In this document: positions 2,793 through 58,486 of the stretch, piece after piece | How positions within the stretch are numbered: position 1 is the first letter of the stretch | Layout of the letters: each line of letters starts with the position of its first letter | NCBI GenBank assembly: GCA_040753875.1 | Contig: JBFMDV010000005.1 | Span: forward strand, 369,142 to 433,141 | From: Candidatus Zixiibacteriota bacterium | GTDB taxonomy: Bacteria > Zixibacteria > MSB-5A5 > GN15 > FEB-12 | Length of the DNA: 64,000 nt | Direction: 5' to 3' | The notes under the pieces: generated by a model | What the model saw: the letters and a program-made list of their open reading frames with translations, nothing else | Databases searched by the model: none | Told to the model about the DNA's origin: nothing | Position numbers and translations under genes: made by a program

Positions 2793-2805
2793 TTCTCCGC
2801 CTCCT

Positions 2806-5526: not shown

Positions 5527-5541
5527 CGTGCACACTCCGGA

Positions 5542-8244
5542 TCAAAAGCTCAGCTCAAACCCGGTCCGGATCGTCCGAGGCGCAGAGTAATTCTGCGGAT
5601 CGTGGTCGTACAGGCGATCCAGGCGGTTGAGCTCGTTTTCGTTCAGGGCCAAACCGGAGCCGACTCGCTGGCGGTCGTCATCCGGCAGTCCGGTGCGGGT
5701 ATAGACATTCAGCACGTTCTTCTTGTTGAACAGGTTGTCCACTTCCACGAAGAAGGTGAGAAGGTTTCTGCTTGGGCCGAATCTGAAATCCTTGTTGAAA
5801 CGCATATCGACCGAATAGTTCGCGGGAAGCCGTCCTTCGTTCCGTTCGCCTCGGCGGTTCCCCAGCGAGTCGGTCTTGGTGTACGGCAAGCCGGAGCCGA
5901 GGTAACCGACCATATTGATACCCCACGAAGAGGGCATCGAGACGCCGAACAGCGAGCCATGCCAGTCGGCGCCGACCCGATAGTCAAACATGGCGGTCAG
6001 CGTATGCCGTTGGTCGAAGTCGAGCGCGTATTCCTTCACTGGAGGCAGCGTATCGGTCTGGGATGTCAGGAAGGTGTAATAGGGCTCCAGAGCATAGGAG
6101 CCGTTGCCGGTGGCCCGCATATAGGTATACGCCACCGAAGCGCTGAAATTGCCGCCCAGCGCCAGCTTGTCGACCGCAACATCGAACCCCTTTACAGACC
6201 CATAATCACCGTTGTCATAATTGGTGACGGCATTGCCAAGGAACTTCACCGACGACCTGGTGGTCACCAGATCGGAAATGTCTTTGGCATACGCGGTGAC
6301 GTCGAGGCGCAGGTTCTGGGATATCAGGTGATCGACACCAATTTCATATGAGCTGGTCTGTTCCGGATTCAGGTCAGGATTTCCCAGGAGTGGCAGCCCG
6401 GTAGTGACATCTCCCTGGAGGTTCGTGTACATATAAGGGTAGCGGGGCTCCTGGTAATAGATGCCGTAATTGAAATGCATGACCGACTTCTCGCTGATCG
6501 GGAACGATACGCCCAACCGCGGCGACCAGCGCGACTTGGTGCTGGCTTTCTGGTAGCGAGCGATCGTGTCGGTCGGCGTCACATTATAGGACACATCAGC
6601 GTTCCGGTAATCGAAGCGCACACCTACGTTGATGACAAAGTCGGCGTACTCCATTTTGTCCTGGGCGAAGAACGACGCATAGACGGGTCGGCTGGAGTAC
6701 AGCTCGCCGTATGGCCGGTCATTATAGAACTGTTTCTTATCCCAGTCGACCGAGTAACTACGATAGTCGAAACCGGTCTTCAGCTGGTTGGTGTTCGTCA
6801 CCTGCTTGAGCAGGCTGGCCGCCACGGCGTTGTAGGCGGTCTTTCGGAAGGCGTAGGTGGGATTGTAGTCATCCCCCTGCGTGAACCCGACGGCCTCGTA
6901 CGGGTTCGTGTAGTCCCGGTCGTTCAGGTAGTTGTTATCATCTATCTTCAGCGAATCGGGGTCATCGGAATAGCCGGGCCAGTCTCTCCAGTACAGGTCC
7001 AGAAAACCTTCCGGCGCCTGCCGGTAACGAGTCCAGAATCGGTTGAACGAGGCGCTGAGAACCGTCCGTTCATTGAAGGTGAAGTTGGACGACAAGCCGC
7101 CGAGGTAAGCATGTTGCTTGAACTCGGGCAGGCCGTCCAGATTGAAATCATAGGAACGACCGTTCACGTCGCGATGCGTGTACAGTTCACCGCGAGAATC
7201 AAAGTACGAGAAATTACCCACCATCTTGATTCTATCGGTAGGCTGAACGGCGATTTTACTGGTTCCCGTGTACGAGCGATTCTGATTGTGCGGCAGGTAC
7301 CCATTGTCGAACAGGTATTCGCCGGCGGTAAAAAAGGTGAACCGCTCGGCATTGGCGCCGGGAATCGGGCCGGAAAGATTGAAGCTGACCGCCCGGTTGC
7401 CGGTGCGGTGCAGATTCCCCCAGTCACCGGTGTTGACGTCATACGGCTGCGTGGCGCCTTCGTAGAAGCGGACTCGCGCGTGATACTGAGCTCCTCCCTC
7501 CGGCGTCACGGCATTTACGACGCCCGACAACGCTTCACCGTACTCGGCGGTGAACCCACCGGACGTCAGCGACAGCTCTTCTAAGGCGCTTGGGATGATC
7601 CGAATACCGGCGGTCGAGACAAACGGATCCTGGACGGAGAAACCATCATAATAATAGGAGACCTGGCCGGACCGTCCGCCGCGCACGTGCATCTCGTTCT
7701 TCTGATCGAAGACCACGCCGGGGTAGCCCCTCAGTACGGTCTGCACAGTGGTGATGTTCGGCAGGTTCTTCAGCCGGTCAGCCGTGTAGATCACCTTCGA
7801 CGCCGTCAGGTCTTTCTGGACAGGCGGCGTGGAGGCATACACGACCATGTTCTGCTTGAGCTCGATGGCCATTTCCTGGAGCTCAAAATCCAACGGGGTG
7901 GTCAGGTCGATCAGGACGCGTACGTCCTTTTTCATCAGCGACTGAAAACCGACGGAAGTCACCGCTATATCGTACTTTCCGCTCGGCACGCTGATAATAA
8001 AGTACTCGCCATCCTCATCAGTGAGAGTCGCCAGGTCGGTTCCTACGACCCTGACGGTGGCTCCGACGATCGGCTGGCCGGCCTGATTGTCGGTCACCGC
8101 CCCAGAAATCTTCCCCGTCACACCGGCAAAGGCGGATGTCGCCAGGCACAACAGTAGAAGGAGGGCGGCATGGAATGTTCGCAGTCGTTTACCCACGGCA
8201 GTCCCTCCGAGGCAAATATTGATTCTCAATGTTTTCATCGTCAT
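5542..8244 (-). CDS. TonB-dependent receptor with carboxypeptidase-like regulatory domain (module A)
   Basis: A 900-residue outer-membrane receptor. After a signal peptide (about residues 20-40) comes a carboxypeptidase-regulatory-like domain (about 42-125: GKISGAVTDNQAGQPIVGATVRV...). A plug domain follows (about 140-250) with the VRGGRSGQVSYYYDGFSVQDP segment, and then a beta barrel ending in aromatic FELSF. It probably imports or signals a large substrate using TonB energy. It is the first gene of the unit with the FN3 surface protein and PorV-like protein, and is divergent from the signalling operon at 8477. The start has no clear Shine-Dalgarno; ATG codons at 8244 and 8238 are both possible. 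Confidence 0.88.
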   Translation of the reverse strand: MTMKTLRINICLGGTAVGKRLRTFHAALLLLLCLATSAFAGVTGKISGAVTDNQAGQPIVGATVRVVGTDLATLTDEDGEYFIISVPSGKYDIAVTSVGFQSLMKKDVRVLIDLTTPLDFELQEMAIELKQNMVVYASTPPVQKDLTASKVIYTADRLKNLPNITTVQTVLRGYPGVVFDQKNEMHVRGGRSGQVSYYYDGFSVQDPFVSTAGIRIIPSALEELSLTSGGFTAEYGEALSGVVNAVTPEGGAQYHARVRFYEGATQPYDVNTGDWGNLHRTGNRAVSFNLSGPIPGANAERFTFFTAGEYLFDNGYLPHNQNRSYTGTSKIAVQPTDRIKMVGNFSYFDSRGELYTHRDVNGRSYDFNLDGLPEFKQHAYLGGLSSNFTFNERTVLSASFNRFWTRYRQAPEGFLDLYWRDWPGYSDDPDSLKIDDNNYLNDRDYTNPYEAVGFTQGDDYNPTYAFRKTAYNAVAASLLKQVTNTNQLKTGFDYRSYSVDWDKKQFYNDRPYGELYSSRPVYASFFAQDKMEYADFVINVGVRFDYRNADVSYNVTPTDTIARYQKASTKSRWSPRLGVSFPISEKSVMHFNYGIYYQEPRYPYMYTNLQGDVTTGLPLLGNPDLNPEQTSSYEIGVDHLISQNLRLDVTAYAKDISDLVTTRSSVKFLGNAVTNYDNGDYGSVKGFDVAVDKLALGGNFSASVAYTYMRATGNGSYALEPYYTFLTSQTDTLPPVKEYALDFDQRHTLTAMFDYRVGADWHGSLFGVSMPSSWGINMVGYLGSGLPYTKTDSLGNRRGERNEGRLPANYSVDMRFNKDFRFGPSRNLLTFFVEVDNLFNKKNVLNVYTRTGLPDDDRQRVGSGLALNENELNRLDRLYDHDPQNYSAPRTIRTGFELSF

Positions 8245-19610: not shown

Positions 19611-20513
19611 TTATATCTCGAAGACAAAACTGAATATGTGCGATGTTCCCAGGCTGTGCGTGTACGGCACAAACGCGTAATCGACGCGCAGGCTGGAGCG
19701 CGTAAATGAAGCTCCCGCGGTGAAGTTCTTGCTGTCGTATCCGGACATGAAGCCGGCGCGAAGTTGAAACAGTTCGTGAAGTCTGGACTCGGCCCCCAGG
19801 TGCAGGTGAGCCTTGTCATCCAATACCACGATATCAGCCGCTCCGAGGTACTTGCGGTAGGTGTACGACCCGCCAAATCGATAGGCGGTCGGCAGCGAAA
19901 TATCACGCGACGAAACGGCACCCGACTTGGTGAGATTGAAATCGGAGCCGAGATCGGTGACCGCCGCACCGAGCCGGACATCCGGGCGAGGTACAGCCTG
20001 TATGCCGAAATCGACATTGAAGGCAGAGCCTCGCCATGATTCGATCTTCTCAATGAACCACCCAGCACCAATTCCAGCCGAGACTTTCTCGGAAAAACGA
20101 TAGGCCAGCCCGGCCTTGAACGAAACGTCGTTGGCTTCAAACAACGCATCGGGAATATCGACCGGGGACTGTCGCATTTCCAGATTGTCGATAGTCGCAT
20201 AGCGGATCCCGCCATGAATGAACAGACGCCCCTTCAAAGGGGAAGTGAAGAATCCGTTCTCGAGGCGAATATTCTCCCAATAGGTGCTGTGCGAAAACGC
20301 TGCTGAGAACTTGCTGCCGCCGGTCGCCCCGGCAGGATTGTAGGCCGAGACATTCGGGTCACCTGTCAGCGAAACAAAGGCTGACCCCATGCCGGAAGGC
20401 CGAGCACCGGGCTCCACTTTCATAAGGGCAAGACCGTCCTGCGCATAGGCGCCCGAACCGAAAACCAGAATTGCCAGCGACATGACATACGACGTGGAAA
20501 GTTGTCTGGTCAT
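19611..20513 (-). CDS. PorV/PorQ-like outer membrane protein (module C, second copy)
   Basis: A 300-residue protein with a signal peptide (cleaved near AYAQDG). It has the family start LMKVEPGARPSGMGSAFVSLTGDPNVSAYNPAG and a predicted barrel ending IFSFVFEI. It is shorter than the PorV-like protein upstream, with which it shares the N-terminal signature and membrane topology, so the pair may come from an old duplication. The gap to the upstream gene is 9 nt. A role in surface export is inferred only from the family. Confidence 0.82.
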   Translation of the reverse strand: MTRQLSTSYVMSLAILVFGSGAYAQDGLALMKVEPGARPSGMGSAFVSLTGDPNVSAYNPAGATGGSKFSAAFSHSTYWENIRLENGFFTSPLKGRLFIHGGIRYATIDNLEMRQSPVDIPDALFEANDVSFKAGLAYRFSEKVSAGIGAGWFIEKIESWRGSAFNVDFGIQAVPRPDVRLGAAVTDLGSDFNLTKSGAVSSRDISLPTAYRFGGSYTYRKYLGAADIVVLDDKAHLHLGAESRLHELFQLRAGFMSGYDSKNFTAGASFTRSSLRVDYAFVPYTHSLGTSHIFSFVFEI

Positions 20514-20522
20514 ATCACGCCT

Positions 20523-21515
20523 TTAGAACAGGACCTCGAGTGAAAAGATATGCTCGGAGCCTTCGTCAACGCGGTCAGAGTTGAACGCATAGTCGATCAT
20601 CGCCGCCTGTTTCCCCAGTTTGAACGCGTACCCGGTACCCGCCGAAAATCGACTCGCGGCGTAACCTCCCCTGATGGCAAACTCCGGCGTGACAAAATAT
20701 TCGGCGCCGCCACGGAACACCGGGTCCTGCTTGGTATTCTTCACCAGGTCGGTTGCCAGTAAGAGTTTTCGATTCAGGAACCGCGCCGAGCCGCCTAGGC
20801 CAACTTCAATCGGCACCTGGTCATCCTGATCGTACCCAAGCTCACCGTACCCGGATCTGGAACGATTGAATTTCTCACTGTTCCACATGTATTTGGCGGC
20901 GAAATTCTTCAGCGTGAGGGCAAGCTGAATATCGCGGATCGGCATTGTCTCACGCTTCTCGCGATTGATGAACTGATCGACATACAGCATACCGCCGAAA
21001 TCAAACCCGACCGAAAACGCCTTTACGTCCGGCATGAGCGAATGGAAATAATTGAGCTTGGTGCCAATCGCCAGATATCGCTCGAACCGTTTGGCAAACA
21101 CGATGCTGAACACGTGGCTGTTCAGGCTGAAATCCTCGCCGGTCGGGACGCCGTTGTAGTCCCGCATGGCAACCGATCCGGAACCAGCATACAGCCAATG
21201 GACCCCCAGAGCCGATTGACCACGAGCCGGGAAAATGGCAGTCGCATAACCCAGGACGCGATCGAGCTGCATGGCGCGGTACGATGTTGCGAACAGCTTG
21301 TGGTCAAGACCGGCCAGACCAGCGGGATTAAAGAGCGGCGCGGCACCATCGTTGGAAACCGCCAGATACGCTCCCATCCCCGCAGGACGAGCACCGATCG
21401 GCACCTGGAGAAACGACGCAGCGTAACCGCCATCGCCATCAGCTGCCCCAGCGACAGACCCGAGCGAAAGCAGCAGGCCAAGCGATAGAACGACTGCAAT
21501 TCCCGGTCGTCTCAT
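20523..21515 (-). CDS. PorV/PorQ-like outer membrane protein (module C, first copy)
   Basis: A 330-residue protein with a signal peptide (cleaved near VAGAADGDG). It has the signature FLQVPIGARPAGMGAYLAVSNDGAAPLFNPAGLAG, then repeating amphipathic strands and a C-terminal IFSLEVLF. The ATG at 21515 overlaps the stop codon of the propeller gene (ATGA), so the two are translationally coupled; the longer open frame runs into that gene and is rejected. The pairing suggests that this protein handles or anchors the propeller protein. Confidence 0.85.
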   Translation of the reverse strand: MRRPGIAVVLSLGLLLSLGSVAGAADGDGGYAASFLQVPIGARPAGMGAYLAVSNDGAAPLFNPAGLAGLDHKLFATSYRAMQLDRVLGYATAIFPARGQSALGVHWLYAGSGSVAMRDYNGVPTGEDFSLNSHVFSIVFAKRFERYLAIGTKLNYFHSLMPDVKAFSVGFDFGGMLYVDQFINREKRETMPIRDIQLALTLKNFAAKYMWNSEKFNRSRSGYGELGYDQDDQVPIEVGLGGSARFLNRKLLLATDLVKNTKQDPVFRGGAEYFVTPEFAIRGGYAASRFSAGTGYAFKLGKQAAMIDYAFNSDRVDEGSEHIFSLEVLF

Positions 21516-42448: not shown

Positions 42449-45238
42449 TCATTTCAACAGGAGCATCTTCCTGGAAACAGATTCCTCCCCTCGAGTCAAC
42501 CGGTAGAAATAGACACCGGATGCCACTTTCCAGCCCGCCTGATTGGCGCCATCCCAACTCACACTATATGTTCCCGCCGGCTGTACCGCATCAACTAACG
42601 TTACCACTTTCTGGCCGAGCAGGTTGTAGATGGCGAGATTTACAGACGGTAGCTTCCCGCTCGCACCCCTGACCGGATTCAGAGTATACGATATTTCTGT
42701 GGATGGGTTGAACGGATTGGGGTAGTTCTGATGCAGGACGATGCTGCTTGGCAAACTCGGCCCATCCGGGTCGTTGACATCAGTGACAATGCTTTCACCG
42801 AAGAACTTGAGTATTTGATCGACAAACGTCTGCTTGGTGGCCCAACTGATTCCTCCCCAATTATCACTTATGAATTCAGGTCCCCAACTCATCACGAAGG
42901 ATTTATACGCACCAGAGTACGTTACAGCGCAACTGCCATAATTTTGTGTCTTCGTTGCGTTTGTAATGATCAGAGAAGTCTGGCCACCGTTGAGCGGGTT
43001 CAGAAGTCCACCGACAGCGTGTGTCGTCCCGCGATACGCGAAAGTATCCCCAACCGGATTGCCGGTGACCCCTTTGGTAATGGGTAGTAGAATTGTTCCG
43101 GGATCCCAACGGGCACGCAGATAGTCTTTCATAAACATAGAATCAGACTCCCAAAGCAGCCTGCTTCCCTTCAGACTCGCGAACGCCAGATTCCCCCCGC
43201 CGTCCAGAAACGTCTTCAGCGACGCGATATCCTGTGCATTCAGCGCCCCACCGTTCAGTGTGTCGCCTGTGAGCCAGAGGATTGTTGTATACTTGCTCAT
43301 CTCTGCCGCCGGTGGGGAACCAATCGAGTCGATTTTGCTCCAGACTCGGTGCGGCACCCGGAGGTTGCGGAGGGCATTGGTGTACAGCGTGTCGAACGAA
43401 AATCCTTCATCGTCGTCAAGTACGAGTATTCTTGGCGCCCCAAGCTCAGCATCAAAATAGAACGTGTCAACAAACCGCTTGTCCCCGTGTGTAGCAACAA
43501 GCGAATCGGCTTCTATTATCAGCCTGAATGTGACGATCTTCGTCTTCGCCGTCGGCGCGAGCGACAGCCTGATCGGAATTTCTGTCACCACACCTGCGGT
43601 CAGCACCGGGTTCAGGTAATTGGTCTCGGTGACGTTGTTGGTGATGATCTGTACGTCGGGATCGTTGCACGACAAATTGAGGTACCAGTAATATGCGCTT
43701 CGCATGAAGTTGCGAACACGGAAATAAACATCCGCCGTCTCCCCCGCTTCGACCATACCGTCTCCGTCGGCCAGACCGACCGTATCCATGAACTTGACCG
43801 AATCGTAACTCCAGAGCGCCAGATGAGGACGTGAATATTCCACATCCAGATCGGCGTACATGATGGAATCTGAGTTGGTGATCCGCCAGACACCCACTTC
43901 GGTCGGGGAGTCGGTCGCGTTGTCGTGCGCGTTTGGATTGCTCATGTCGTGGAAATTGCGGTTGACGGTGTTACCAGGCCATGGGTCACCGGCATCGGCG
44001 CCATATGCGGTAAGTGCCAGATCATTGAAGCCATCCGCCTGCTCTAGCGCCACTTTGTAACGAAGGTAATTGTCGTTATTCGGGACAGCGCCATCGACAT
44101 GATAGATCAGCAGACCTGAAGCAGGAAGTCCCAGGTCGAAGCCGACTCGCTGTCTGTTCTCCACCAGCCAGTATTCGGAGCCGCCCGGCTCTCCCAGTAT
44201 TCTGTACACCATAGCGTTGTACTCGACAGCCGGGATAGGTGCCTGGTACAGGTTGGACGTGACATCAAGGAGCCCGGTATCCGGGACGAGAAACCCGAGG
44301 TTGATCTTGCACCACGGATCGAAGTGAGCCGGAAGTTTGGAACTACCATTGTAATTTCCCGACGCCATCAGCGACCAACTGCCCAGTCCATCTGATGTCG
44401 AAGGGGTGTAGTCTGTGTCGTACAGGTCGGGGAGCCCGAGGATATGTCCATACTCATGACAGAACACGCCGATGGGCACCATGGCGCCGAGAAACTTCTC
44501 GGGGTTCATGGTGTATGCGTATATAGATTTGCCGTCTAACGTGAGTGACGTGGACAGATTGCTTCGATGTGACCAGATGGCAGTTGAGTCTCCCCCTTCC
44601 TCTGCCCCCTTGCCGGCATGAACTACGATTATACCATCCACGATGTTATTGCCGTCATTGTCGTACTTGGCGAAATTGACGAACGAGTCGGCCGCAAGGG
44701 CAGCATCGCGCGCGAGCAGTCGTCCGCCAGGACCCAGTCCCATGTCGGTCCCTACATAGGAGGCATACGAGTTCGACATTCTGAGCCAGTGCGTCACGTC
44801 CCCCCTGATAAACAGCTTACCATAGGAATTCTCGAAATAATAGTCCGTCATGGAGCCGGTCGCATTCGAATCCGGGTCCCCTTTGACAGAGAACAGCATC
44901 GAATCGAACTTGGCGCTGTCACCGACCGTGGCCCAATTGTCGTAGAAATCCACGAGTATTACGATAACGTTGATCGTGTCGACCGCATTGGGATCAAACG
45001 CCGCCTTGGCGGCCATACGCTCACGTGAGAACGGCAGATTCGCTGACGGAGCATCGCCGCCGGCATCACGGAACGCTTTCAGGATGGCGAGATTCTTTTC
45101 GAGTGTCCCTTCGGCTTTCCATTTTTCGAGCGTGCCGGGCATCGGCGCAACCGCAAATGCACTGTTCGCGATAATGAGAACTATAAGAAGCGCGAGCAAT
45201 CCCCCGGTGAATCGACAGACGCATGTGTTCCTGGACAT
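42449..45238 (-). CDS. secreted M6-family metalloprotease with type IX-like C-terminal tail
   Basis: A 929-residue protein: signal peptide (about residues 1-30), M6 (immune inhibitor A-like) peptidase domain with HEYGHILGLPDLYD at about residue 261 (zinc site HExxHxxG/D), GSWSLMASGNY after it, and beta-rich middle domains. The last 90 residues hold NYPNPFNPSTEISYTL...VSWDGANQAGWKVASGVYFYRL...KMLLLK, the FCB-type sorting tail. It should cut proteins outside the cell. The ATG at 45238 is used rather than an in-frame TTG upstream. It lies 84 nt downstream of the S8 protease. Confidence 0.87.
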   Translation of the reverse strand: MSRNTCVCRFTGGLLALLIVLIIANSAFAVAPMPGTLEKWKAEGTLEKNLAILKAFRDAGGDAPSANLPFSRERMAAKAAFDPNAVDTINVIVILVDFYDNWATVGDSAKFDSMLFSVKGDPDSNATGSMTDYYFENSYGKLFIRGDVTHWLRMSNSYASYVGTDMGLGPGGRLLARDAALAADSFVNFAKYDNDGNNIVDGIIVVHAGKGAEEGGDSTAIWSHRSNLSTSLTLDGKSIYAYTMNPEKFLGAMVPIGVFCHEYGHILGLPDLYDTDYTPSTSDGLGSWSLMASGNYNGSSKLPAHFDPWCKINLGFLVPDTGLLDVTSNLYQAPIPAVEYNAMVYRILGEPGGSEYWLVENRQRVGFDLGLPASGLLIYHVDGAVPNNDNYLRYKVALEQADGFNDLALTAYGADAGDPWPGNTVNRNFHDMSNPNAHDNATDSPTEVGVWRITNSDSIMYADLDVEYSRPHLALWSYDSVKFMDTVGLADGDGMVEAGETADVYFRVRNFMRSAYYWYLNLSCNDPDVQIITNNVTETNYLNPVLTAGVVTEIPIRLSLAPTAKTKIVTFRLIIEADSLVATHGDKRFVDTFYFDAELGAPRILVLDDDEGFSFDTLYTNALRNLRVPHRVWSKIDSIGSPPAAEMSKYTTILWLTGDTLNGGALNAQDIASLKTFLDGGGNLAFASLKGSRLLWESDSMFMKDYLRARWDPGTILLPITKGVTGNPVGDTFAYRGTTHAVGGLLNPLNGGQTSLIITNATKTQNYGSCAVTYSGAYKSFVMSWGPEFISDNWGGISWATKQTFVDQILKFFGESIVTDVNDPDGPSLPSSIVLHQNYPNPFNPSTEISYTLNPVRGASGKLPSVNLAIYNLLGQKVVTLVDAVQPAGTYSVSWDGANQAGWKVASGVYFYRLTRGEESVSRKMLLLK

Positions 45239-45322
45239 ACTTCCAACCCACGATAGTATCAAGTTGTGACTTTCAATTGCGGCCTCCGCGGGCCGGTGGG
45301 TGGAAGATACGAATGGAAAGGG

Positions 45323-48241
45323 TTATTTCACCAGCATCATTTTGCGGGTCTGTTCGCCCAGCGCGCCGGTCAGTCGATAGAAGTAGACGCCGCTGGCGAC
45401 CGACTGGCCGCCATCATTCTCGCCCATCCAGACGATATGGTGCTCGCCTGCGGCGAGACTGCCAGAGACCAGCGTGCGGACTCGCTCGCCCAAGAGGTTG
45501 AACACCTCGAGCCGTATGTCGCTCGCTTTCGGCAGAGCAAATGAGATGGTTGTAGAAGGATTGAAGGGATTGGGATAATTCTGATGTAGACTAAAGCTCT
45601 CCGGAACATTTGCGTCATCATCCACCGCGGTCGGGATTCCCATTCGCTGTTCGGCTCGAACCGCGGCGGTCACCAACTCGTTCACAGCCATGCCACCAAC
45701 CAGCGCAATGGCGATCTCTACCGAATCTCCAACCGGGATGGTGTACGGACCAAAACTGACAGCGATCATGCGATCCCCAATAACGGAAGCATCTACCGAA
45801 TTGACAGCCGAAGCGATCAGGTCGTATTTCTCCTGGCTTTTCAACCCAACCTTGCCCGCACTGTTCGACAATGCCGTGAACGTGGCCCCCTCACTCAAAG
45901 CCACGATACCGACCATCGGTCCGATGTCGCTGTACTGATAGATCATACCGAGCGACGAATTCAACTGCACCTGGTCAGACTGCCCGCTGATGTCAAAATC
46001 GGCCAGAAAGCCAAAATGCATTTCCGTCATAGTCTGCAACGTGCGGTTGACCAGATGGTATTTGAGAATGACATAGCCGGACTCGTCCGCTGTGCCGTAG
46101 TGCATCGATTCCTGGCTTACAGTAATCGGAATGGCGATCTTGGCTCTGCTGTCGGCGAATTGGCAGCTCGTGTGCACGCCCCCGTCGACCGGGTCGATAT
46201 ATTGAGTCAGCGATTCGACGGGCGCGAATGCCGAGGGACCGTAGCAGCCAAGCGAATCCCGTACCGAACCGGCCAGTTGCAGGCTGTTCCGTCCAACGAT
46301 GATCCCGGCCTCGTACAAAAGGTTGGCGCTCCCGTTGACCCGGAACCCCTGCCCTTCCAGGTTGTAGATGGAGCCGGGGGCCAGACCGTACTGGGCAAAG
46401 TCCGAAACCGAAAAGTCGACAGTACCGGTGGTGAGCGGCGCCACATGTCCCGGCGCAGGGAAACCGGCGGTCAGGTCAAACGTCAAACTGTCGAGCAATA
46501 CGCCGTTGGAATCGGCGAACGTTACAATCATGGGAATCGAAGCGCCGTTCACGAGCGATGAATCAAGGGTCAACCGAAATGGGTCGGTGTTGAGCGCAGT
46601 GCTGCCGCCGCTTCCAAAAAGAAACTGCGCCGTCCCTTTGGTGATGGTGATTTGTCCGGTCGATTGCACGCCAAGAGTGCCGTTCACTTTAGATACGTTG
46701 CCTGCGGTCTCGGCCACCATGAGTTGCAGCTCGATCGCCTCCCCGGGAGAGGCAACGCCGTCGCCCGAGATCAATCTTCCCAGAAGCGTGAACCGGGTCT
46801 GGCCTGGCTGCGGCAGCAGCGCCAGAAGACGGGTAGCATCGACCAGCCCATGCCCATAGGCGTTGTCATCCCCCGCCGGACCCAGATCGTCGGCGGCCTG
46901 CAGAAGGGCATACTTGATCTGATCCACTGTGGCATCAGGGTTGTATTCCCGACAGAGGAGTACGAGGCCCGCAATGAACGGTGCCGCCATGGAAGTACCG
47001 CTCATGTAGGCATAGGTGCCGCCGCGTGTCGACGACCTTATGGCCACACCGGGGGCGACCAGTTCCGGCTTCAACTGCGTGCTGTCACATGATGACGGTC
47101 CGCGACTTGAAAACGTTGCGACCACTTTGCTTATGTCAATGGCACCAACGGAGAATGAATTCACCGGCGAACTGGACCGATCGGCAGGGCTGCGTACGGT
47201 CTTGGGATTGGGCCCCTCGTTGCCACAGGCGAAGATTGTGACGATCCCGGCCGCCTCGACATTGTCTATCACCTGTGCGAAAGTCTCATCGCAGGGTTCA
47301 AACAGGCCGGTCGGGATCCCCCAACTGTTCAGTATGACATCCGGAACATCATCGGTGGTGGCGGTGTCGCCATCGGGATTCAGCGCCCACTGGAACGCCT
47401 CGATAATGTCGCCGATCGTGACATTGAGGGGTCTCCCCTGGTCAATGACACCGGCCGTGATCCACTCGGCCCCGGGCGCCACACCGAACGAGTCAGAGGC
47501 GGTCGAGCCGACCATGATCCCCATCGTGTGCGTGCCGTGTCCCGCCTTATCGTACGGGATCGTGTCCGGAGCAACTTTGGAGAACCAGCTAGCGCGCAAG
47601 TCGGCGTGAGTGCCGCGCCACTTGGAAGCAAGGGCCGGGTGGGTGCTCTCTACGCCGGTGTCAAAAGAGCAGACCAGACGTCCGTTGCCGCGAATGCCAA
47701 GACGCCAGAGCTCCGGCACTTTCAGAAGCGTCAGTTCACTCGAGACCGAGGTGCTGATAGCCGGTGCAGCCTTTATATCGACAGGAGCATCGAAGTCGAG
47801 GGTGACATTCGGTATCACCAGACGGATTCCCGGCAAAGCTGCCAGGTCAGCGAGTTTCGCAACGGGCAGAGAAGTTTCTATGGCAGGCGCGATCCAGAAT
47901 CGCCGGGTCTGACCGACGGCATTGATATCCAGAAAATGCATCACACGGCTATCGCTCGAAGATGGGGATGCCGAAGACAACGAGCTAATGACCGTCTTGA
48001 TCCTCGTCGCTCTGGTCTGATTCGGACTCGCGGCAATTGCGCTCAACGCGTTCGAGCGCGATTCGGATTCGAGGAAGATGACAACGGTGACAATGCTGTC
48101 CGGCGAGGTGGGGTTGTCGATTACGACGTTCAGCGCAGGAGCGAGTTTGGGAGACCCGGCGGCTAAACTATGAGTCAGACCTACTGTGATAGCAAGTATC
48201 GAGGAGGCGACGATAGCAAGGCGTGAGGTTCCTGTCTTCAT
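45323..48241 (-). CDS. secreted subtilisin-like S8 serine protease with type IX-like C-terminal tail
   Basis: A 972-residue protein. It has a signal peptide (cleaved near HSLAAGS), a propeptide, and the S8 catalytic domain. The Asp lies in VCSFDTGVES (about 193), His in GHGTHTMGIM (about 235) and Ser in MSGTSMAAPFIAG (about 415). Beta-sandwich domains of unknown type fill about 480-880. A tail NYPNPFNPSTTISFAL...SGVYFYRLTG...RKMMLVK ends the protein. AGGAG precedes the ATG by 6 nt. It is upstream of, and probably co-transcribed with, the M6 protease. Confidence 0.9.
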   Translation of the reverse strand: MKTGTSRLAIVASSILAITVGLTHSLAAGSPKLAPALNVVIDNPTSPDSIVTVVIFLESESRSNALSAIAASPNQTRATRIKTVISSLSSASPSSSDSRVMHFLDINAVGQTRRFWIAPAIETSLPVAKLADLAALPGIRLVIPNVTLDFDAPVDIKAAPAISTSVSSELTLLKVPELWRLGIRGNGRLVCSFDTGVESTHPALASKWRGTHADLRASWFSKVAPDTIPYDKAGHGTHTMGIMVGSTASDSFGVAPGAEWITAGVIDQGRPLNVTIGDIIEAFQWALNPDGDTATTDDVPDVILNSWGIPTGLFEPCDETFAQVIDNVEAAGIVTIFACGNEGPNPKTVRSPADRSSSPVNSFSVGAIDISKVVATFSSRGPSSCDSTQLKPELVAPGVAIRSSTRGGTYAYMSGTSMAAPFIAGLVLLCREYNPDATVDQIKYALLQAADDLGPAGDDNAYGHGLVDATRLLALLPQPGQTRFTLLGRLISGDGVASPGEAIELQLMVAETAGNVSKVNGTLGVQSTGQITITKGTAQFLFGSGGSTALNTDPFRLTLDSSLVNGASIPMIVTFADSNGVLLDSLTFDLTAGFPAPGHVAPLTTGTVDFSVSDFAQYGLAPGSIYNLEGQGFRVNGSANLLYEAGIIVGRNSLQLAGSVRDSLGCYGPSAFAPVESLTQYIDPVDGGVHTSCQFADSRAKIAIPITVSQESMHYGTADESGYVILKYHLVNRTLQTMTEMHFGFLADFDISGQSDQVQLNSSLGMIYQYSDIGPMVGIVALSEGATFTALSNSAGKVGLKSQEKYDLIASAVNSVDASVIGDRMIAVSFGPYTIPVGDSVEIAIALVGGMAVNELVTAAVRAEQRMGIPTAVDDDANVPESFSLHQNYPNPFNPSTTISFALPKASDIRLEVFNLLGERVRTLVSGSLAAGEHHIVWMGENDGGQSVASGVYFYRLTGALGEQTRKMMLVK

Positions 48242-50776: not shown

Positions 50777-52975
50777 TCAGAAATCGCTCGGGTGTTGGTG
50801 GCGCCAGGCTGCCTGCTCGCGCATCTGCTGCTGGCGCGCCTCGAAATTGCGACGGACATCATCGACTGACATCTGTATCGCCGCGCCCGGATATCTGGTG
50901 GCAGTCGGCGGTGCCTGCAGATATTCGTCAAATAACCAGTTGAGAACCGAGTCGATGACGACTTGCATCGCGATTGTGTCCATGGCCAGCGGCGTGAAGT
51001 TGAAATGCACCGTTCGGAAAAGCCCGGCATCAAGTCGGTGCGCCACCGGTGTACCGTCGAACGTGAACAGGTCGCCGAGGAAGTGCCCGCGCGAACCGAA
51101 ACGGGACTTGTACAGGAACATCGGCTCCGTTCCGAAGGACCGTGATGTCCAGTCAACCTCAGGGAGTGAGGCTATGGTGTCACGCCACGCCAGCGCACCA
51201 CCGATCACGGGTGTCCAATATATCCGTCGATGGAGCAACGTGGTGTCGATGGACAGGTCGGGCCACTTGTTAGTCTGCAGACTGTATGCTCCCACAAAGT
51301 CCTCGATGCGTGTCTGAGGGGGCGTCGGATAGAACAGATTCTGGATGGCCATAGGAAGCCACCCGGAGTATATCATAGTCTGCACTCCGAAATATCGTTG
51401 GTACTGGGCGTCAACAGGCGGATTTTGCGGCAGGGCCGCAGCCATATAGTCCGGCTTGGAATCAATCGGCGTTCTCATGGTCAGCCACGCGTTGACTCCT
51501 GCGTCAATCGCCGTGTAGATGACTTCGCCCATCTCCGAGGCTGAAACACCGGTGGAGATCCCTGACTTGGTAACGTTGTCGTTGTAGAGAATCAGCAACT
51601 TGTACCTGAGCACCTGCTGCAAGTCGATCCGGTCGCTCTGACCGTTCGGATACAGGTAGTCCTTGGCCTTGGAATAGTCGATACTCGGGTTCCATTTGCG
51701 AATAACATTTGCCCAGTAGTTACGAGCAGTATCAACGGTAGTGTCACGGGAGTTGAGTATGCCTCTGACCGGAGCATTATAGCGAGCTCCTATGGAGAGT
51801 TTGGTGAAGTCGATGACCAGTACATCGCGCTCGAACTTTGGATCCAGCACGTACAATATCTGATACGAAGGCGCCAGATCCTCCACTGAAGCATCGTCCC
51901 GACAAGTCACCCAGAATACAAAGGTTTCCTCACGAGTTTCGGCGCTTGGGGCATCTTTGAAGACATTGAAAAACGAGTCCCGGGTAGTAGTCAACCAGCC
52001 CGGTGAGCTGTCCACCACTTTGTAGAAGGGCGAACTCGTGAATGCAGGGTCGTCGACCGTGAGAATGCTGTCCAGCCGGCCATACGGGCTTTCCTTGGTA
52101 ACGGTGTCGACTAAGAGAGTGTCGCACGTGATAACGACGTTCGGGGGCACAAATGTCGTATCACAGCGGAAGATCGTGTCGTTGTTACCGACGAAATATA
52201 CCTGGGCGTCGGTAGAGACGAATATCTTCTTCACGAACTGAGCCCGGAGTTGATCCAGCTCATCGCTGCTTGACGCCGTATCATACGCATACGGGCCAAA
52301 GAATTTCCAGCGGAACTCAAAGGGCGGCGCATCCGACGGATAATCGATCAAGTCCTCACCGCGCCAACCGATTCTGACGCCGGTTATGGCCCCTCCGGGA
52401 AACACCGAGTTGATAAACGGGTCGTTGATAGTAGTTCCCTGCAACACGCTCACAAATGCTTGCGGTGGGTTGTCATTGCGGAACATCATCTTCCACACAA
52501 ATGCCGAGCCGGCCCCCAGATCGTCGATCGCCTGCAGAAAGATGTACTGCTGCACGTATTGACGAACCGGGTCGCTCAGATCGGCGGACATCTTCACGGT
52601 ATTGGCGGTCTTGGGTTCCTCAACGGTGACAGTCAAATAAACGAACTTCGAACTGTCATATCCGGGAAGAGAGTCGCGGGCGAATTCCTCGGGCGTTCGG
52701 CCGTTCAATTCCGTAACCGTCCTGACGATATACCGAAACACCTTCACTTGCCCATCGGCATCCGTGCCGAACCAATATACGACCGGATTTCGGGACGTGC
52801 TGACACCATCCGGCGGCACATTGACAAACTGTACGACCGGCGGCTGATTTTGGAACCGGGTTCCGGATACCCGGTCGGAGCAACTGGTCGCGACCAACGC
52901 GTACACGGCGACCGTCGCCAGAATGAACCCGACAAGTATGAGGCGGGCCGTCGAAGAACTCATTGTATTTCTCAT
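50777..52975 (-). CDS. large surface lipoprotein, unknown function (module B)
   Basis: A 732-residue protein with a lipoprotein signal (lipobox ATSC; Cys at residue 32). An Ig/FN3-like region follows (NQPPVVQFVNVPPDGVSTSRNPVVYWFGTDADGQVK), then long stretches rich in aromatic and acidic residues without a recognised domain. A second part (about residues 370-560) has alternating strands and helices (DVLVIDFTKLSIGARYNAPVRG; LRYKLLILYNDN), perhaps a Rossmann-like domain. It is the third gene after the TonB receptor and PorV-like gene, 20 nt from the latter, so it is a likely surface partner of that receptor. Confidence 0.7.
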   Translation of the reverse strand: MRNTMSSSTARLILVGFILATVAVYALVATSCSDRVSGTRFQNQPPVVQFVNVPPDGVSTSRNPVVYWFGTDADGQVKVFRYIVRTVTELNGRTPEEFARDSLPGYDSSKFVYLTVTVEEPKTANTVKMSADLSDPVRQYVQQYIFLQAIDDLGAGSAFVWKMMFRNDNPPQAFVSVLQGTTINDPFINSVFPGGAITGVRIGWRGEDLIDYPSDAPPFEFRWKFFGPYAYDTASSSDELDQLRAQFVKKIFVSTDAQVYFVGNNDTIFRCDTTFVPPNVVITCDTLLVDTVTKESPYGRLDSILTVDDPAFTSSPFYKVVDSSPGWLTTTRDSFFNVFKDAPSAETREETFVFWVTCRDDASVEDLAPSYQILYVLDPKFERDVLVIDFTKLSIGARYNAPVRGILNSRDTTVDTARNYWANVIRKWNPSIDYSKAKDYLYPNGQSDRIDLQQVLRYKLLILYNDNVTKSGISTGVSASEMGEVIYTAIDAGVNAWLTMRTPIDSKPDYMAAALPQNPPVDAQYQRYFGVQTMIYSGWLPMAIQNLFYPTPPQTRIEDFVGAYSLQTNKWPDLSIDTTLLHRRIYWTPVIGGALAWRDTIASLPEVDWTSRSFGTEPMFLYKSRFGSRGHFLGDLFTFDGTPVAHRLDAGLFRTVHFNFTPLAMDTIAMQVVIDSVLNWLFDEYLQAPPTATRYPGAAIQMSVDDVRRNFEARQQQMREQAAWRHQHPSDF

Positions 52976-52995: not shown

Positions 52996-53979
52996 TCAAA
53001 AACTCAAGGCCATGCTGAACCGGTGTACCTCTGTCAGAATGCCGAAATCCTGATAGGCGTAGTCAAACCGGAGTTCGCTCTCTTTGCCGTACGGAACCCG
53101 TACACCGCCGCCGAACGTAAAACCGTCGACATCATAGTTGAACCGGCTGCCGCCGCGGAGGACGAAACGGTCCTTGAAGGTATATTCGATTCCGGCGTTG
53201 TATTTCTCGAGGTTGTCCGATGGGTGAGCCCCCTCGGCGGCGAAGGTCACCAGATGATTGAGATTCTCAACCACATTGATGGACGCGCCGAATTTGAAAT
53301 TGATCGGGAGCGGATATGCTTTTTCTATGAGTTTCAGGTCCGGTCCGAAGTTAGTGATCACCATGGCAATCTTGAACCCGCGGAAACCGGTGTCGTAGTT
53401 GGTGCCGACATCGGCAGACCAGCCGTGGTCGGTATACTCATAGAAGCGCTCGCTCACGTATTTGACGTTCACACCGATGGAGAAGCGGTCGGTGAGATAC
53501 CGTCCGTACCCCAGCGAGAGGGCGTAATCTTCGGCTGAGAATTGCTGCCCGGACGACTGCTGGTGTGAATATGTCGTTATGTTCATATAGCCGCTCGAGA
53601 GGTAGTGGAAGCCGACCCCGACAACTCCGCCCACGGCCTCGAGCGGGACAGCCGCGGCCGCGAAACCGTAGTTTATATCGGCAGGCAGTTTCACATAGGT
53701 GGCCATGGCCTCACGACCCAGAAGCTGGGTAAGGCCGGCCGGATTGTAGTATACAGCAGAAGCATCGTTCGCCACTGCCGTAAACGCCTCCGCCATTCCC
53801 ATGGCCCGTGCCGACACGCCCAATTCAAGGAACTGGGCGCCGGTAGTGCCCACTTTGGCCTGCGCCAGTATCGAACCCGGCGTCAGCGCAACCAGCCCGA
53901 TCAACAACAGCCCGATCGCCGCCAGCGACAGCTGCCCTTGTCGACCCAACCGGTTCCCTATCGGAGTCCTATTTCTCAT
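52996..53979 (-). CDS. PorV/PorQ-like outer membrane protein (module B)
   Basis: A 327-residue predicted barrel with a signal peptide (about residues 18-40, cleaved near LAQAKVG). It has the PorV signature GAQFLELGVSARAMGMAEAFTAVANDASAVYYNPAGL and ends in HRFSMALSF. It is closest in pattern to the PorV-like protein at 1794 (shared TGAQFL/SAGAQFL start, FGGG...LRFDYAYQDFG near the end). It lies between the TonB receptor (43 nt) and the lipoprotein. Confidence 0.87.
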   Translation of the reverse strand: MRNRTPIGNRLGRQGQLSLAAIGLLLIGLVALTPGSILAQAKVGTTGAQFLELGVSARAMGMAEAFTAVANDASAVYYNPAGLTQLLGREAMATYVKLPADINYGFAAAAVPLEAVGGVVGVGFHYLSSGYMNITTYSHQQSSGQQFSAEDYALSLGYGRYLTDRFSIGVNVKYVSERFYEYTDHGWSADVGTNYDTGFRGFKIAMVITNFGPDLKLIEKAYPLPINFKFGASINVVENLNHLVTFAAEGAHPSDNLEKYNAGIEYTFKDRFVLRGGSRFNYDVDGFTFGGGVRVPYGKESELRFDYAYQDFGILTEVHRFSMALSF

Positions 53980-54022: not shown

Positions 54023-57000
54023 TTACAGGTTGACATCGATACCAAGACGCACCTGGCGCCCGTAACCCCAGTTGTAAGGGTTCTGGTCATAGTCGGTGCC
54101 GCCGAACACGACTCGGTTGAAATTCTGCTGCGTATCGGCTCGACCGGTGCTCGTATACACCGACGCGACGTTTCGCGAATTGAACAGATTCTCAACCCAG
54201 ACGATGAACGAATAGTCCAACCCGACCAGCTTGAAGCCCTTTTGGAATCGGACGTCGAACACCGCCGTCGCCGGCAGACGCAGCGAATTGGTCTCGATAT
54301 CTTCACCCGTCTCGGTGGAAATGTTCGGGTACGCCGTGGTCGGCGTGAACGGCCTTCCGCTCTCAATGACTGACTCCACGGACAACGACCATCCGTTCGA
54401 GATCGGCAGACCAAACAGCCTTGGTTTGACCGTGTTGGGGATATAGATCTGAATGGCCGCCTTCAGCGAATGCCGTATATCGTTGTCCAACGCCGCTTCT
54501 GACAACGGCGTACGTGACAGCAGGAATTCGCTCAGATAGTTCTCATTGGTCTGCGATGCTTTGCCGAAAGCAAACGCATAGGTGTAGGAAAGCTGGCCAT
54601 TGACATACCCGCCGCCCCGCTTCTCTAAGGTCACCTCTACGCCGCGGCTACGCCCATAGTCGGAGTTGCGGTACTGCTGGCGGGTGAGACCGCCGACGCG
54701 CACCTGGGCCGAGTTGATCTTGTCGAACTCGTCCTTGAAATAACCCGAGAAGTCCACCGAGTAGTTCTCAGTCATGGCGTATTTCACGCCGAACGAGTAC
54801 TGAATGGTCTTCTGATAATCCAGATTGTAATTGCCCACGATGGAGTTCTGGTCAACCGAAGCGGTATTACGGGCATACATTCGGGAATACTCCGGCAACT
54901 GAAAGAAGTGGCCATAGTTGAAGTGAACCTTGGCCTTGTCTGAGATCGGGTACGAAAAACCGATTCGCGGAGACCATTTGTGACGGTCACCGAGGATGAT
55001 ACCCGAACCCAGGTCGTCATTCGTGGCCACGTCGATGAGCTGCTTGGTGTCCTGGAGGAAGAAATCGAAGCGAAGTCCTAGTGATGCGATCATCGACCCG
55101 TACTCGATCTTGTCGCGGAAATAGACCGTCCCGCTCCACGGATTGTAGCTGAAGAAATCGCGGAATGCCCCGCGGTCGGGATAGGCGGCGTTGTCCGGAC
55201 GTCCGGTGTAAGTGAGATACGGGCGCAGGATATCCTCATAGGTAAACGTCTCACGGTTCACGGCAGCGCCCACCTTCAACTCGTGCGGCCCCTGCAGCCG
55301 GAAGATCTTTATCTCCCCGCGCGTAGTGCTGGTGTGACTCCGTGTCCAGCGTGCCTCTTCGTCGTAACTGCCGGGATCAAGAAACGTCGACGTGCCACCG
55401 TAGTCGTATTTCCCGTTGCCGTTTATATCCGTGAATCTCTCACCAACGTCGTACTGGCTGTTCGGACGATCGTAGATGCCGTTGCCGTTACGGTCTTCGT
55501 ACGGAATGCCGGGCTCCCAATCGCTGTCGGGCCCATCGTGGACGCCGTTGTAGTTATAATCCTGGTTGACGGCCGGATTCGAACTCCTGGTGAAGATATC
55601 GATGCCTCGATCGTAGATGCCGTTCTGGTTGATATCAGTGAACGGCTCGCCAATGATGGAATCACCGTCGATATACGGCTCCGGATTCTTATTGTTGATC
55701 AGCGAGATCCGGTTCCCGTCCAGCACCCCATTGCCATTCTTGTCCTGAAGGAAATCCCCCTGGTCCCACACACCGTTGCCGTTAATATCGATAAACGGCT
55801 CCCCCTCGAGACTATCGAGATAACCGTTATTGTTGAAACGGAAGCGGGTTCCTTCACCGGTTCCACCCTGAATATTTTCTTCGGTCTGAAATTCTCCGAA
55901 GGTATATGCCGGACCGTTGAAATCGGTGCCATACACGGCCGAATCCGGGAAGAGATTGATCAGCGGCTCGGGCGCATCATACACACCATTGTTATTCCGG
56001 TCCGTGTAACTTTCCCACTCGTAATCGAACGTGAACTGATCGGGATCGAGCCCCACGCCCGGGTGGTTGGGGTCGGCCGGTTTGCGCGTGAACTTCTTGT
56101 CGTAGTATGAGACAACCATCTCATAGTTGGTGTTCTTATTGATGGACTGCGAGACCTCCGCGGAAAGAGAATACCACTTGTCCCAGAACAGCGGCGCTGT
56201 ATTGGGGGAGTAACGATACTCCCACTGGTCTACCGTGAAGTACTTACCCCGGTAATCGGAGTTCTTATACGAGAGAATGACATTCAAGCTCGGTTTCGGA
56301 CGGAACTTGACATTGGCCGTCCAATAGTACCGGTTGCGCAGCCGCTCGGGCACATCGATGCCGAGCAAACTGTAGTACCCTAGGTTGCGTTCGGTGATGG
56401 GCGTATCATACGACTCGTATTGATAGATACCGTCATCCTTGTCCATCTCAAAATACAAGTAATAGGTGAACTCCTTATCGGCGAGGAAATTCAGTCCGAG
56501 CGCGGGGAGGATCCTACTCTTGAGGATCGGGTCCGGACCGGAAACCGAAAACCGGGCGTAATCGTAATTCCGCGAATATTTGTTCAGGCTGGCATTCCCC
56601 AGATCATCGGTCAGATACTGCATGTTGACGCGAGTATTGTCCTTACTCCCGGTCTGCGTGGTAACTTTGACGATCCCCGAAAGCGCATTACCGTACTCCG
56701 GGTCGAAACCGTCCTTGATGATTTGAATCTCCTGAATCGATCCCGACACCAATGACAAGTTTGCGCCGATACCGCCCCCCCCCAGCGGGTCACCGATCGG
56801 GACACCGTCGACAATGTAGGACACTTCACCGGCGCGGCCACCGCGAATGTACACTTTGCCCGACGCATCCGTCTGCACACCCGCCACCTGCTTGAGCAGA
56901 TTGTCGACGGTCTGCACCGGTCGGGTCTTGATCTCCTGCTGAGTGATGGTCGCCTGGTTCGAGGTCACGAACTTGTCAATGATCTCCGTCTTGGCGGTCA

Positions 57001-57367
57001 CCGTAATGGTCTTATCCAACTCAGTGACTGCTTTTGGCACAGCGATCAGCTGCTGCGTGGTCAGGTCGGCCTGAACCTTGACATCGACGATCTCCATCTT
57101 CTGATACGACACACTGGAGACGACCAGCGTGTAGGTTCCCGGCTCGACCCGGGAGATGGTGAAATTGCCGTCCGGATCCGTCATCGCCCCCATCGTGGTC
57201 CCTTTGATGATGACCGAAGCACCCGGCAAGGCTTCCTTGGTATCCTTGTCTCGGACCGTCCCTTTTATCTGCCCGGTCCCGGCAGCGAACAGTGCCGGCG
57301 CGAGTAACGCCAGACACACTGTAACAAGTACGAGGGTCAATGCGCGTCCCGTTGCGATGCCACGCAT
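54023..57367 (-). CDS. TonB-dependent receptor with inserted calcium-loop repeats (module B)
   Basis: A 1114-residue receptor. After the signal peptide comes a carboxypeptidase-regulatory-like domain (about 32-115: GQIKGTVRDKDTKEALPGASVIIKG). The plug has VYIRGGRAGEVSYIVDGVPIGDPLGGGG (about 150-260) and a barrel follows. Within the barrel region, about residues 456-655, seven segments fit DxNxNGxxD, such as DRNNNGVYD, DINGNGVWD and DKNGNGVLD. They resemble EF-hand/thrombospondin type 3 calcium loops. The ATG at 57367 has GAGGAGG 9 nt upstream; the longer frame is rejected. It heads the unit with the PorV-like protein and the lipoprotein. Confidence 0.88.
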   Translation of the reverse strand: MRGIATGRALTLVLVTVCLALLAPALFAAGTGQIKGTVRDKDTKEALPGASVIIKGTTMGAMTDPDGNFTISRVEPGTYTLVVSSVSYQKMEIVDVKVQADLTTQQLIAVPKAVTELDKTITVTAKTEIIDKFVTSNQATITQQEIKTRPVQTVDNLLKQVAGVQTDASGKVYIRGGRAGEVSYIVDGVPIGDPLGGGGIGANLSLVSGSIQEIQIIKDGFDPEYGNALSGIVKVTTQTGSKDNTRVNMQYLTDDLGNASLNKYSRNYDYARFSVSGPDPILKSRILPALGLNFLADKEFTYYLYFEMDKDDGIYQYESYDTPITERNLGYYSLLGIDVPERLRNRYYWTANVKFRPKPSLNVILSYKNSDYRGKYFTVDQWEYRYSPNTAPLFWDKWYSLSAEVSQSINKNTNYEMVVSYYDKKFTRKPADPNHPGVGLDPDQFTFDYEWESYTDRNNNGVYDAPEPLINLFPDSAVYGTDFNGPAYTFGEFQTEENIQGGTGEGTRFRFNNNGYLDSLEGEPFIDINGNGVWDQGDFLQDKNGNGVLDGNRISLINNKNPEPYIDGDSIIGEPFTDINQNGIYDRGIDIFTRSSNPAVNQDYNYNGVHDGPDSDWEPGIPYEDRNGNGIYDRPNSQYDVGERFTDINGNGKYDYGGTSTFLDPGSYDEEARWTRSHTSTTRGEIKIFRLQGPHELKVGAAVNRETFTYEDILRPYLTYTGRPDNAAYPDRGAFRDFFSYNPWSGTVYFRDKIEYGSMIASLGLRFDFFLQDTKQLIDVATNDDLGSGIILGDRHKWSPRIGFSYPISDKAKVHFNYGHFFQLPEYSRMYARNTASVDQNSIVGNYNLDYQKTIQYSFGVKYAMTENYSVDFSGYFKDEFDKINSAQVRVGGLTRQQYRNSDYGRSRGVEVTLEKRGGGYVNGQLSYTYAFAFGKASQTNENYLSEFLLSRTPLSEAALDNDIRHSLKAAIQIYIPNTVKPRLFGLPISNGWSLSVESVIESGRPFTPTTAYPNISTETGEDIETNSLRLPATAVFDVRFQKGFKLVGLDYSFIVWVENLFNSRNVASVYTSTGRADTQQNFNRVVFGGTDYDQNPYNWGYGRQVRLGIDVNL
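55403..56002 (-). repeat. seven calcium-loop-like repeats inside the receptor gene
   Basis: In-frame repeats of the form D-x-N-x-N-G-x-x-D (DRNNNGVYD, DINGNGVWD, DKNGNGVLD, DINQNGIYD, DYNYNGVHD, DRNGNGIYD, DINGNGKYD), spaced by 12-60 residues. The linkers repeat GEPF-D or EPYxD phrases before the loops. The DNA is diverged between copies, so this is an old repeat rather than a recent expansion. Confidence 0.85.
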
Positions 57368-57676
57368 ATGCTCAAACCTCCTCAACGCTATCATCACAAA
57401 CTTACATTCCACACAACTGCAGACTCATGCCAAGTCTGCACGGCAGGCAGCTAGGAGGCAGGTGGCGAAGAACGCGAAACGCAGGGACAAAGAACAGTGA
57501 GGAGAACTTTGCCTGTGATCGACCGCCAAAGCCGACTAATCTACCCAACCCTCTCATTCACCAACACTTACCGGCCCTTGCCCTATTCGGCTGCGCCGGA
57601 TTGAACCGCAAGATAGACCGCCTGCGACGGCCAAGTCAAGCGATTTTTTCCCAGCGTCAGCCTCTAACCGTCTATG
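57368..57676. other. long leader/intergenic region upstream of the module B receptor
   Basis: 309 nt without a gene. It holds the strong Shine-Dalgarno of the receptor and a candidate promoter at 57610-57639, which would give a leader of about 235 nt. I looked for a B12-type riboswitch in this leader and saw no convincing box. No plus-strand gene starts here. Confidence 0.4.
57610..57639 (-). promoter_or_regulatory. candidate promoter of the module B receptor unit
   Basis: TTGACT (57639-57634), 18-nt spacer, TATCTT (57615-57610) on the minus strand. Both boxes are close to consensus. Confidence 0.4.
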
Positions 57677-58486
57677 CTATAGACTATTGAAGCCGGGATT
57701 CTGTTTAAGAGTTTCACGCTGTTCGAGGGGATTTTTTCGCAGATGACCAGCCATCTTCGCAACCTCGGCAAGGTCGGTGCCGGCGAGGGTACCGAGCCGC
57801 ATTTGAACACCGAAGCGCTCCGCAAACGAATGCGCGAAATGTTCGGCGTACACATCAAAGCCGCCGGAGTCAACTGGTTGTGGCACCGTGCCTTCGCACT
57901 GCTCGCTAAGCATCAGAGCGGGATGTCGCGCGACCCCACGAAGCTTGATCGATCCATGCTGTAACAGCTGTTCACCGGTGCGACGCTGTGCGGAAGCAAC
58001 GATCTTCTGTTCTCCCCTCATAAGCTCGTATCGGGCAGCCGAGGCAAAGCATGGTGCCTTGTGGAAGAACTCGGGCCGGCTGTTCTGCCGGTGTGAGGTG
58101 CGAACATAGTCTGCGGCCACTCCCTCCCATTCCAGGAAACTGCGTAACGCTTCGGCTATGATCGCCGAAGCCCTCGAGCCAGAGACTGCCGCGCCCGAGC
58201 CGCTGAGGTCCATAGCAATGGCATACGTCAGTTCCGACGGATCATGGTATAGCGCGCGGCCGCCGGTGATACGCCGAATGACCGGCGTTGTCCCGATCCT
58301 GGTGAAATCGAGTGCCGTATCCTGCCGTTGGTTGTACCCAAAGGTGATGGCTCCTTCGCGCCAGGTGTAAAGGCGAAGAAGAATTGTGAGCGGGGACCGT
58401 GCCGATCGGGTCATCAGCCACTCATCGAACGCCATGTTGAAATACGGATCAGCAGCGAAATGCTGAAAGAACAGGAGGCTCGTCAT
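57677..58486 (-). CDS. lipoate-protein ligase A family protein
   Basis: A 269-residue protein of the biotin/lipoate A/B ligase family. It has LRLYTWREGAITFGYNQ, the lipoyl-AMP motif RRITGGRALYHDPSELTYAI, and Lys in GEQKIVASAQRR. It should attach lipoate (or octanoate) to E2 or GcvH domains. The family also includes octanoyltransferases (LipM type), and the separate C-terminal LplA domain is not obvious, so LipM-like activity is possible. It lies 37 nt downstream of the sigma-54 activator gene on the same strand. Confidence 0.82.
   Translation of the reverse strand: MTSLLFFQHFAADPYFNMAFDEWLMTRSARSPLTILLRLYTWREGAITFGYNQRQDTALDFTRIGTTPVIRRITGGRALYHDPSELTYAIAMDLSGSGAAVSGSRASAIIAEALRSFLEWEGVAADYVRTSHRQNSRPEFFHKAPCFASAARYELMRGEQKIVASAQRRTGEQLLQHGSIKLRGVARHPALMLSEQCEGTVPQPVDSGGFDVYAEHFAHSFAERFGVQMRLGTLAGTDLAEVAKMAGHLRKNPLEQRETLKQNPGFNSL

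Follow-up and report, generated by a model that had tools for sequence, protein, structure and literature searches.

The locus described here raises the question of what a run of calcium-type loops is doing in the barrel region of a TonB-dependent receptor. The gene lies at 54023..57367 of the window, which is the whole 64-kb stretch of DNA that was analyzed, and is on the minus strand, as are all parts of the receptor given below. It encodes 1114 amino acids from an ATG start; a GTG upstream at 57412 is an alternative start that would add 15 residues. The Plug domain (residues 135-231; 56675..56965) matches PF07715 at 49.2 bits against a Pfam cut-off of 23.9, and the barrel matches TonB_dep_Rec_b-barrel at 74.9 bits against 27. 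An N-terminal CarboxypepD_reg-like domain, CarbopepD_reg_2, is also above its Pfam cut-off. Ahead of the plug is a TonB-box-like stretch, DKTITVTAK (residues 118-126; 56990..57016), in which V123 is at least 90% conserved, and from its sequence we infer that this stretch would function as the TonB box. The SusC/RagA profile TIGR04056 gave 80.5 bits, below its curated cut-off of 368.25. No Rfam match was found within the window. Foldseek searches with a model of the receptor returned known receptors, for example PqqU, FecA, and BtuB. Judged by these domains, the protein apart from its insert is a standard TonB-dependent receptor.

The sequence-only reading had placed seven D-x-N-x-N-G-x-x-D loops in residues 456-655. 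The count proved exact: the receptor has seven such motifs and all of them lie inside this range. They are DRNNNGVYD (loop 1, residue 456; 55976..56002), DINGNGVWD (loop 2, residue 527; 55763..55789), DKNGNGVLD (loop 3, residue 542; 55718..55744), DINQNGIYD (loop 4, residue 578; 55610..55636), DYNYNGVHD (loop 5, residue 603; 55535..55561), DRNGNGIYD (loop 6, residue 625; 55469..55495), and DINGNGKYD (loop 7, residue 647; 55403..55429). A chance origin is excluded by shuffling. Over 20,000 shuffles, the whole receptor gave a mean of 0.003 motifs and the insert's own composition a mean of 0.008, with a maximum of 1. The DNA form of the motif has 15 matches in the 3.29 Mb genome, 7 of them inside this gene, and a backwards-pattern control gave 0 matches. 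The second receptor of the window (5542-8244) was said to lack the insert, and this was borne out; it contains no DxNxNGxxD, and a single relaxed match, DFNLDGLPE, is seen at residue 366.

The position of the loops in the fold was derived from a full-length AlphaFold2 model built on an alignment of 44 relatives (mean pLDDT 65.7). The model has 22 barrel strands, as counted from its strand list. Strands 1-7 span residues 246-429 (56081..56632) and strands 8-22 span residues 675-1113 (54029..55345). Between them lies the insert with its seven calcium-type loops, residues 430-674 (55346..56080), which the alignments also delimit; it is flanked by strand 7 (413-429) and strand 8 (675-692). With the plug on the periplasmic side, odd-to-even connections face outward, so the insert would be extracellular loop 4. 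The even-to-odd connections are mostly short turns, as expected for the periplasmic side. At around 245 residues, this loop compares with 30-98 residues at the same place in loop-free relatives. The proposal of an extracellular insert emerging from one barrel hairpin is thus supported at the level of prediction, with all seven loops in loop 4.

The shape of the domain is less well defined by the models. The plug and residues 471-524 have a pLDDT below 50 in the full-length model, which leaves the overall shape unsettled, and the insert could fold differently. When the insert was modeled alone, residues 562-652, which hold the last four loops, reached a pLDDT of about 90 and contained hardly any helix or strand. 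Foldseek found no match for the insert model in the PDB at E values up to 10. Few strands and helices may hamper Foldseek, and the absent match neither supports nor excludes a calcium-loop fold.

Do these loops bind calcium? In 49 diverse relatives, with identities as low as 33%, loop positions 1, 3, 5, and 9 have a mean conservation of 0.91, compared to 0.47 for the whole protein (p = 4e-12), and D456, D527, D567, and D647 are invariant. At the ligand positions, N and D usually replace each other, and both provide oxygen ligands. The glycine at position 6 is conserved at 0.59-0.98, depending on the loop. In loop 1, position 12 is Glu in 98% of the sequences; in loop 2 it is always Asp or Glu, and in the other loops an acidic residue is less regular there. 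Near-invariance of this residue is thus limited to loops 1 and 2, which counts against the calcium reading. The loops carry D or N at positions 1, 3, 5, and 9 and Gly at 6, as EF-hand-like loops do. Both the ligand pattern and the degree to which it is conserved fit calcium loops, and on this pattern we consider it very probable that the insert loops bind Ca2+.

The same conservation bears on whether the repeats are a mere calcium-hardened spacer, or a surface coat that resists proteases, and bind no particular partner or ligand. Stiffening is the main role of stacked calcium loops elsewhere, as in thrombospondin type 3 repeats, and relatives differ in loop number, from about 4 to 10, as a spacer might allow. 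However, conservation extends to single positions, both in the loops and in the stretches that separate them, beyond the needs of a spacer, and we regard this explanation as improbable. In an alignment of 44 close relatives, the conservation of the insert (0.64) equals that of the plug (0.62) and the barrel (0.67), which suits a structural or docking surface.

The loops had been described as foreign to receptor barrels, being normal in dockerins and thrombospondin type 3 repeats. The insert scores above the cut-off of no Pfam or NCBIfam family, and neither dockerin nor thrombospondin type 3 families are among the Pfam matches of 44 inserts at E values up to 1. GEVED appeared in 19 of these 44 (best E 0.0027) along with other scattered weak matches; all were rejected as low-complexity acidic sequence. 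A profile of the insert searched against PDB sequences gave weak matches to EF-hand proteins only (GCAP1, E 0.003; calbindin, 0.94), a likeness at the level of the motif and not homology. A literature search found no description of a receptor with such repeats. The description has to be amended in one respect: by sequence comparison, the insert is a regular component of a receptor family found across the phylum, not an oddity of one protein. Searching with the insert alone, a step that the sequence-only reading had proposed, recovered it in other receptors across the phylum and in lipoproteins; no description of the family was found, so the sequence-only reading is not refuted on this count.

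The distribution of the receptor is broad. The genome collection yielded 52 related loci, nearly all labeled Zixibacteria. In a search of the phylum, the receptor was present in 131 of 132 Zixibacteria genomes, including 78 of the 78 good ones; it is core to Zixibacteria. A profile built from just the insert matches 136 of 337 genomes, of which 127 are Zixibacteria and nine belong to other phyla. Several genomes outside Zixibacteria proved, on reading, to encode receptors with loops in the same position, and the receptors of four other-phylum loci (L099, L101-L103) have inserts of 383-460 residues. In a tree built on the barrel without the insert, all 19 Zixibacteria receptors sampled, each with at least five loops, group together (support 0.99), joined by one non-Zixibacteria receptor, L100, at a support of 0.80. 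The deeper branches are too poorly resolved to tell a single origin of the insert from several.

Part of the insert is also found outside receptors. Roughly positions 130-234 of the insert profile match separate proteins of around 330-380 residues in other Zixibacteria. The shared core module, seen in the profile matches and the insert model, corresponds to residues 557-660 (loops 4-7; 55388..55699), and no Pfam or NCBIfam family covers it. The N-termini of the module proteins read are lipoprotein-type signal sequences. Such lipoprotein-like proteins occur in L157-L160, L162, L163, and L166, with two in one locus at L157. Pfam scans of five of them gave a DUF3108-like domain in one and no family in four. 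The presence of the module in separate lipoproteins indicates that the insert's C-terminal part is a domain that can be used in more than one context. Weaker matches to the insert profile are hypothetical proteins on Candidatus Manganitrophus plasmids, one of which (L167:4839-5558; CP114562.1) is 37% identical to the second half of the insert. The gene for this plasmid protein lies just upstream of type II secretion or pilus genes.

These observations can be set against a reading in which the insert itself is a ligand-capture site or gate, with Ca2+ ordering loop 4 for the substrate and no partner involved. BtuB, one of the structural matches of the receptor model, is a precedent; it has two extracellular calcium sites, and its affinity for cobalamin falls around 1000-fold at low calcium (PMC7360065). 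The BtuB sites, however, form an aspartate cage and are not DxNxNG repeats. An insert conserved like the barrel across a phylum, with a module that also occurs in non-receptor lipoproteins, is less expected of a substrate-specific site. We consider this reading possible but rather unlikely.

The gene neighborhood offers candidates for partners. Downstream of the receptor is a gene for an outer-membrane barrel of the PorV/PorQ family (FadL-type; 52996..53979, minus strand), which scores 204.6 bits with NF033709. It passes the cut-off of this broader family, gives 65.9 bits with the PorV equivalog (cut-off 250), and also matches the FadL/Toluene_X profile. A PorV/PorQ-family gene lies downstream on the same strand in 51 of the 51 close loci that have downstream sequence; in two of the loci (L051 and L056) this gene's frame, taken from stop to stop, overlaps the receptor end. 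Next comes, wherever there is room and with the exception of L038, a gene for a putative lipoprotein (732 amino acids; 50777..52975, minus strand). Most of its homologs start with a hydrophobic stretch followed by a lipobox. It has no Pfam or NCBIfam match, and hence no SusD match.

Upstream of the receptor in most loci is a gene for an LplA/LipM-like enzyme of 269 amino acids (57677..58486, minus strand; PF21948, 78.7 bits). With this gene upstream in nearly all loci and a downstream barrel that matches FadL/Toluene_X, the cluster could be read as one for the uptake of lipoate or fatty acids. But the enzyme scores only 42 bits with the lipoate-protein ligase profile, whose cut-off is 280, and two LipA matches above the curated cut-off indicate that the genome makes its own lipoate. 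Such an uptake role is highly improbable, and the LplA/LipM-like gene is probably a neighbor and not part of a complex.

Many deeper Zixibacteria, and other phyla as well, encode a protein of around 900 residues between the receptor and the PorV-family gene. The C-terminal ends that were read resemble T9SS sorting tails. In L006 and L007 a T9SS-tail gene is found upstream of the LplA-like gene and not between receptor and PorV, from which it appears that this gene moves within the cluster. A SprA_N match in the genome makes a T9SS-type translocon plausible.

Two further receptor genes of this genome are followed by a PorV-family gene. One is in the window (1794-8244), where the receptor at 5542-8244 is followed by a 909-residue protein with a T9SS-type tail (2806-5535) and a PorV/PorQ-family barrel (1794-2792). 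The other is on G000:C31 (47160-54358). The second cluster of the window has the PorV-family barrel and no loops, so the loops are not required for the pairing. Elsewhere in the window, a subtilase (45323-48241) ends in a T9SS type A sorting tail, and the 937-residue protein beside it (42449-45262) has a similar C-terminal tail and resembles a secreted metalloprotease. Two PorV/PorQ-family matches lie back to back at 19617-21422 (G000:C5:388758-390563), reported as one long open frame, yet separate ORFs in the window list.

We give about an even chance to the proposal that calcium makes the insert a rigid platform at the mouth of the receptor, on which the partners encoded in the cluster dock. 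In this mechanism, extracellular loop 4 of the outer-membrane TonB-dependent receptor would be expanded into a domain of around 245 residues, and Ca2+ would fill the loops once the receptor reaches the cell surface. Each of the seven loops would probably hold one Ca2+ ion, stiffening a chain nearly devoid of helix and strand. The rigid domain would most likely stand beside or over the mouth of the receptor. There it could dock the PorV-family barrel, the 732-residue lipoprotein, or, in deeper lineages, the T9SS-tail surface protein. The standing surface complex would then capture a substrate and import it through the plug with TonB energy. TonB-driven import is what we infer from the type of receptor. 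For the docking of partner proteins by the insert, taken by itself, our confidence is a shade below even, and the gene neighborhood does not prove contact.

The receptor can be compared with known systems. With SusC-type receptors it shares the N-terminal extension, the TonB-box-like motif, the plug, the 22-strand barrel, and a lipoprotein gene in the cluster; it differs in the calcium-loop insert, in the score of 80 against 368 bits, and in a lipoprotein with no SusD match. What it has in common with BtuB (PMC7360065), also a TonB-dependent receptor, is the location of calcium sites in the extracellular loops, although here the sites are predicted, and BtuB holds its two ions with no DxNxNG repeats and no large insert. 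By analogy, the layout resembles SusCD and the presumed calcium use resembles BtuB, which does not make the receptor a member of either group. Dockerins and thrombospondin type 3 repeats likewise have D-x-[ND]-x-[ND]-G-x-x-D loops in series; they differ in that no Pfam profile of theirs matched the 44 inserts scanned, and here the model has almost no helix and the loops sit in a barrel loop. The canopy of the Bacteroidota BAM complex (BamG and surface lipoproteins) is also phylum-wide, with a FadL-family barrel and one lipoprotein with bound calcium (PMC12611786, PMC12578637). By analogy with that assembly a non-nutrient role is conceivable, although the main barrel here is a TonB-dependent receptor and the cluster has no BamA.

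Since the insert domain occurs almost throughout the phylum, beside the same partner genes, and has no family in the libraries searched, it probably belongs to an uncharacterized core surface machine. A bolder version, which we think unlikely as a whole, makes the receptor the center of a phylum-wide surface machine, not an ordinary nutrient importer. This machine would consist of the receptor, the FadL-family barrel, the lipoprotein, and sometimes the T9SS-tail protein, held by a calcium-loop module of an undescribed family, and would serve either the upkeep of the outer membrane or an uptake step that the cell cannot do without. Rapid change is the rule for the extracellular loops of TonB-dependent receptors. 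In this case an uncultured phylum has retained a large loop domain throughout, and its presumed metal ligands are among the most conserved residues of the protein. The finding defines a calcium-loop module that has no Pfam or NCBIfam family and occurs in two settings, a receptor loop and lipoproteins, and it suggests that this phylum, about whose cell surface very little has been published, has a core complex there.
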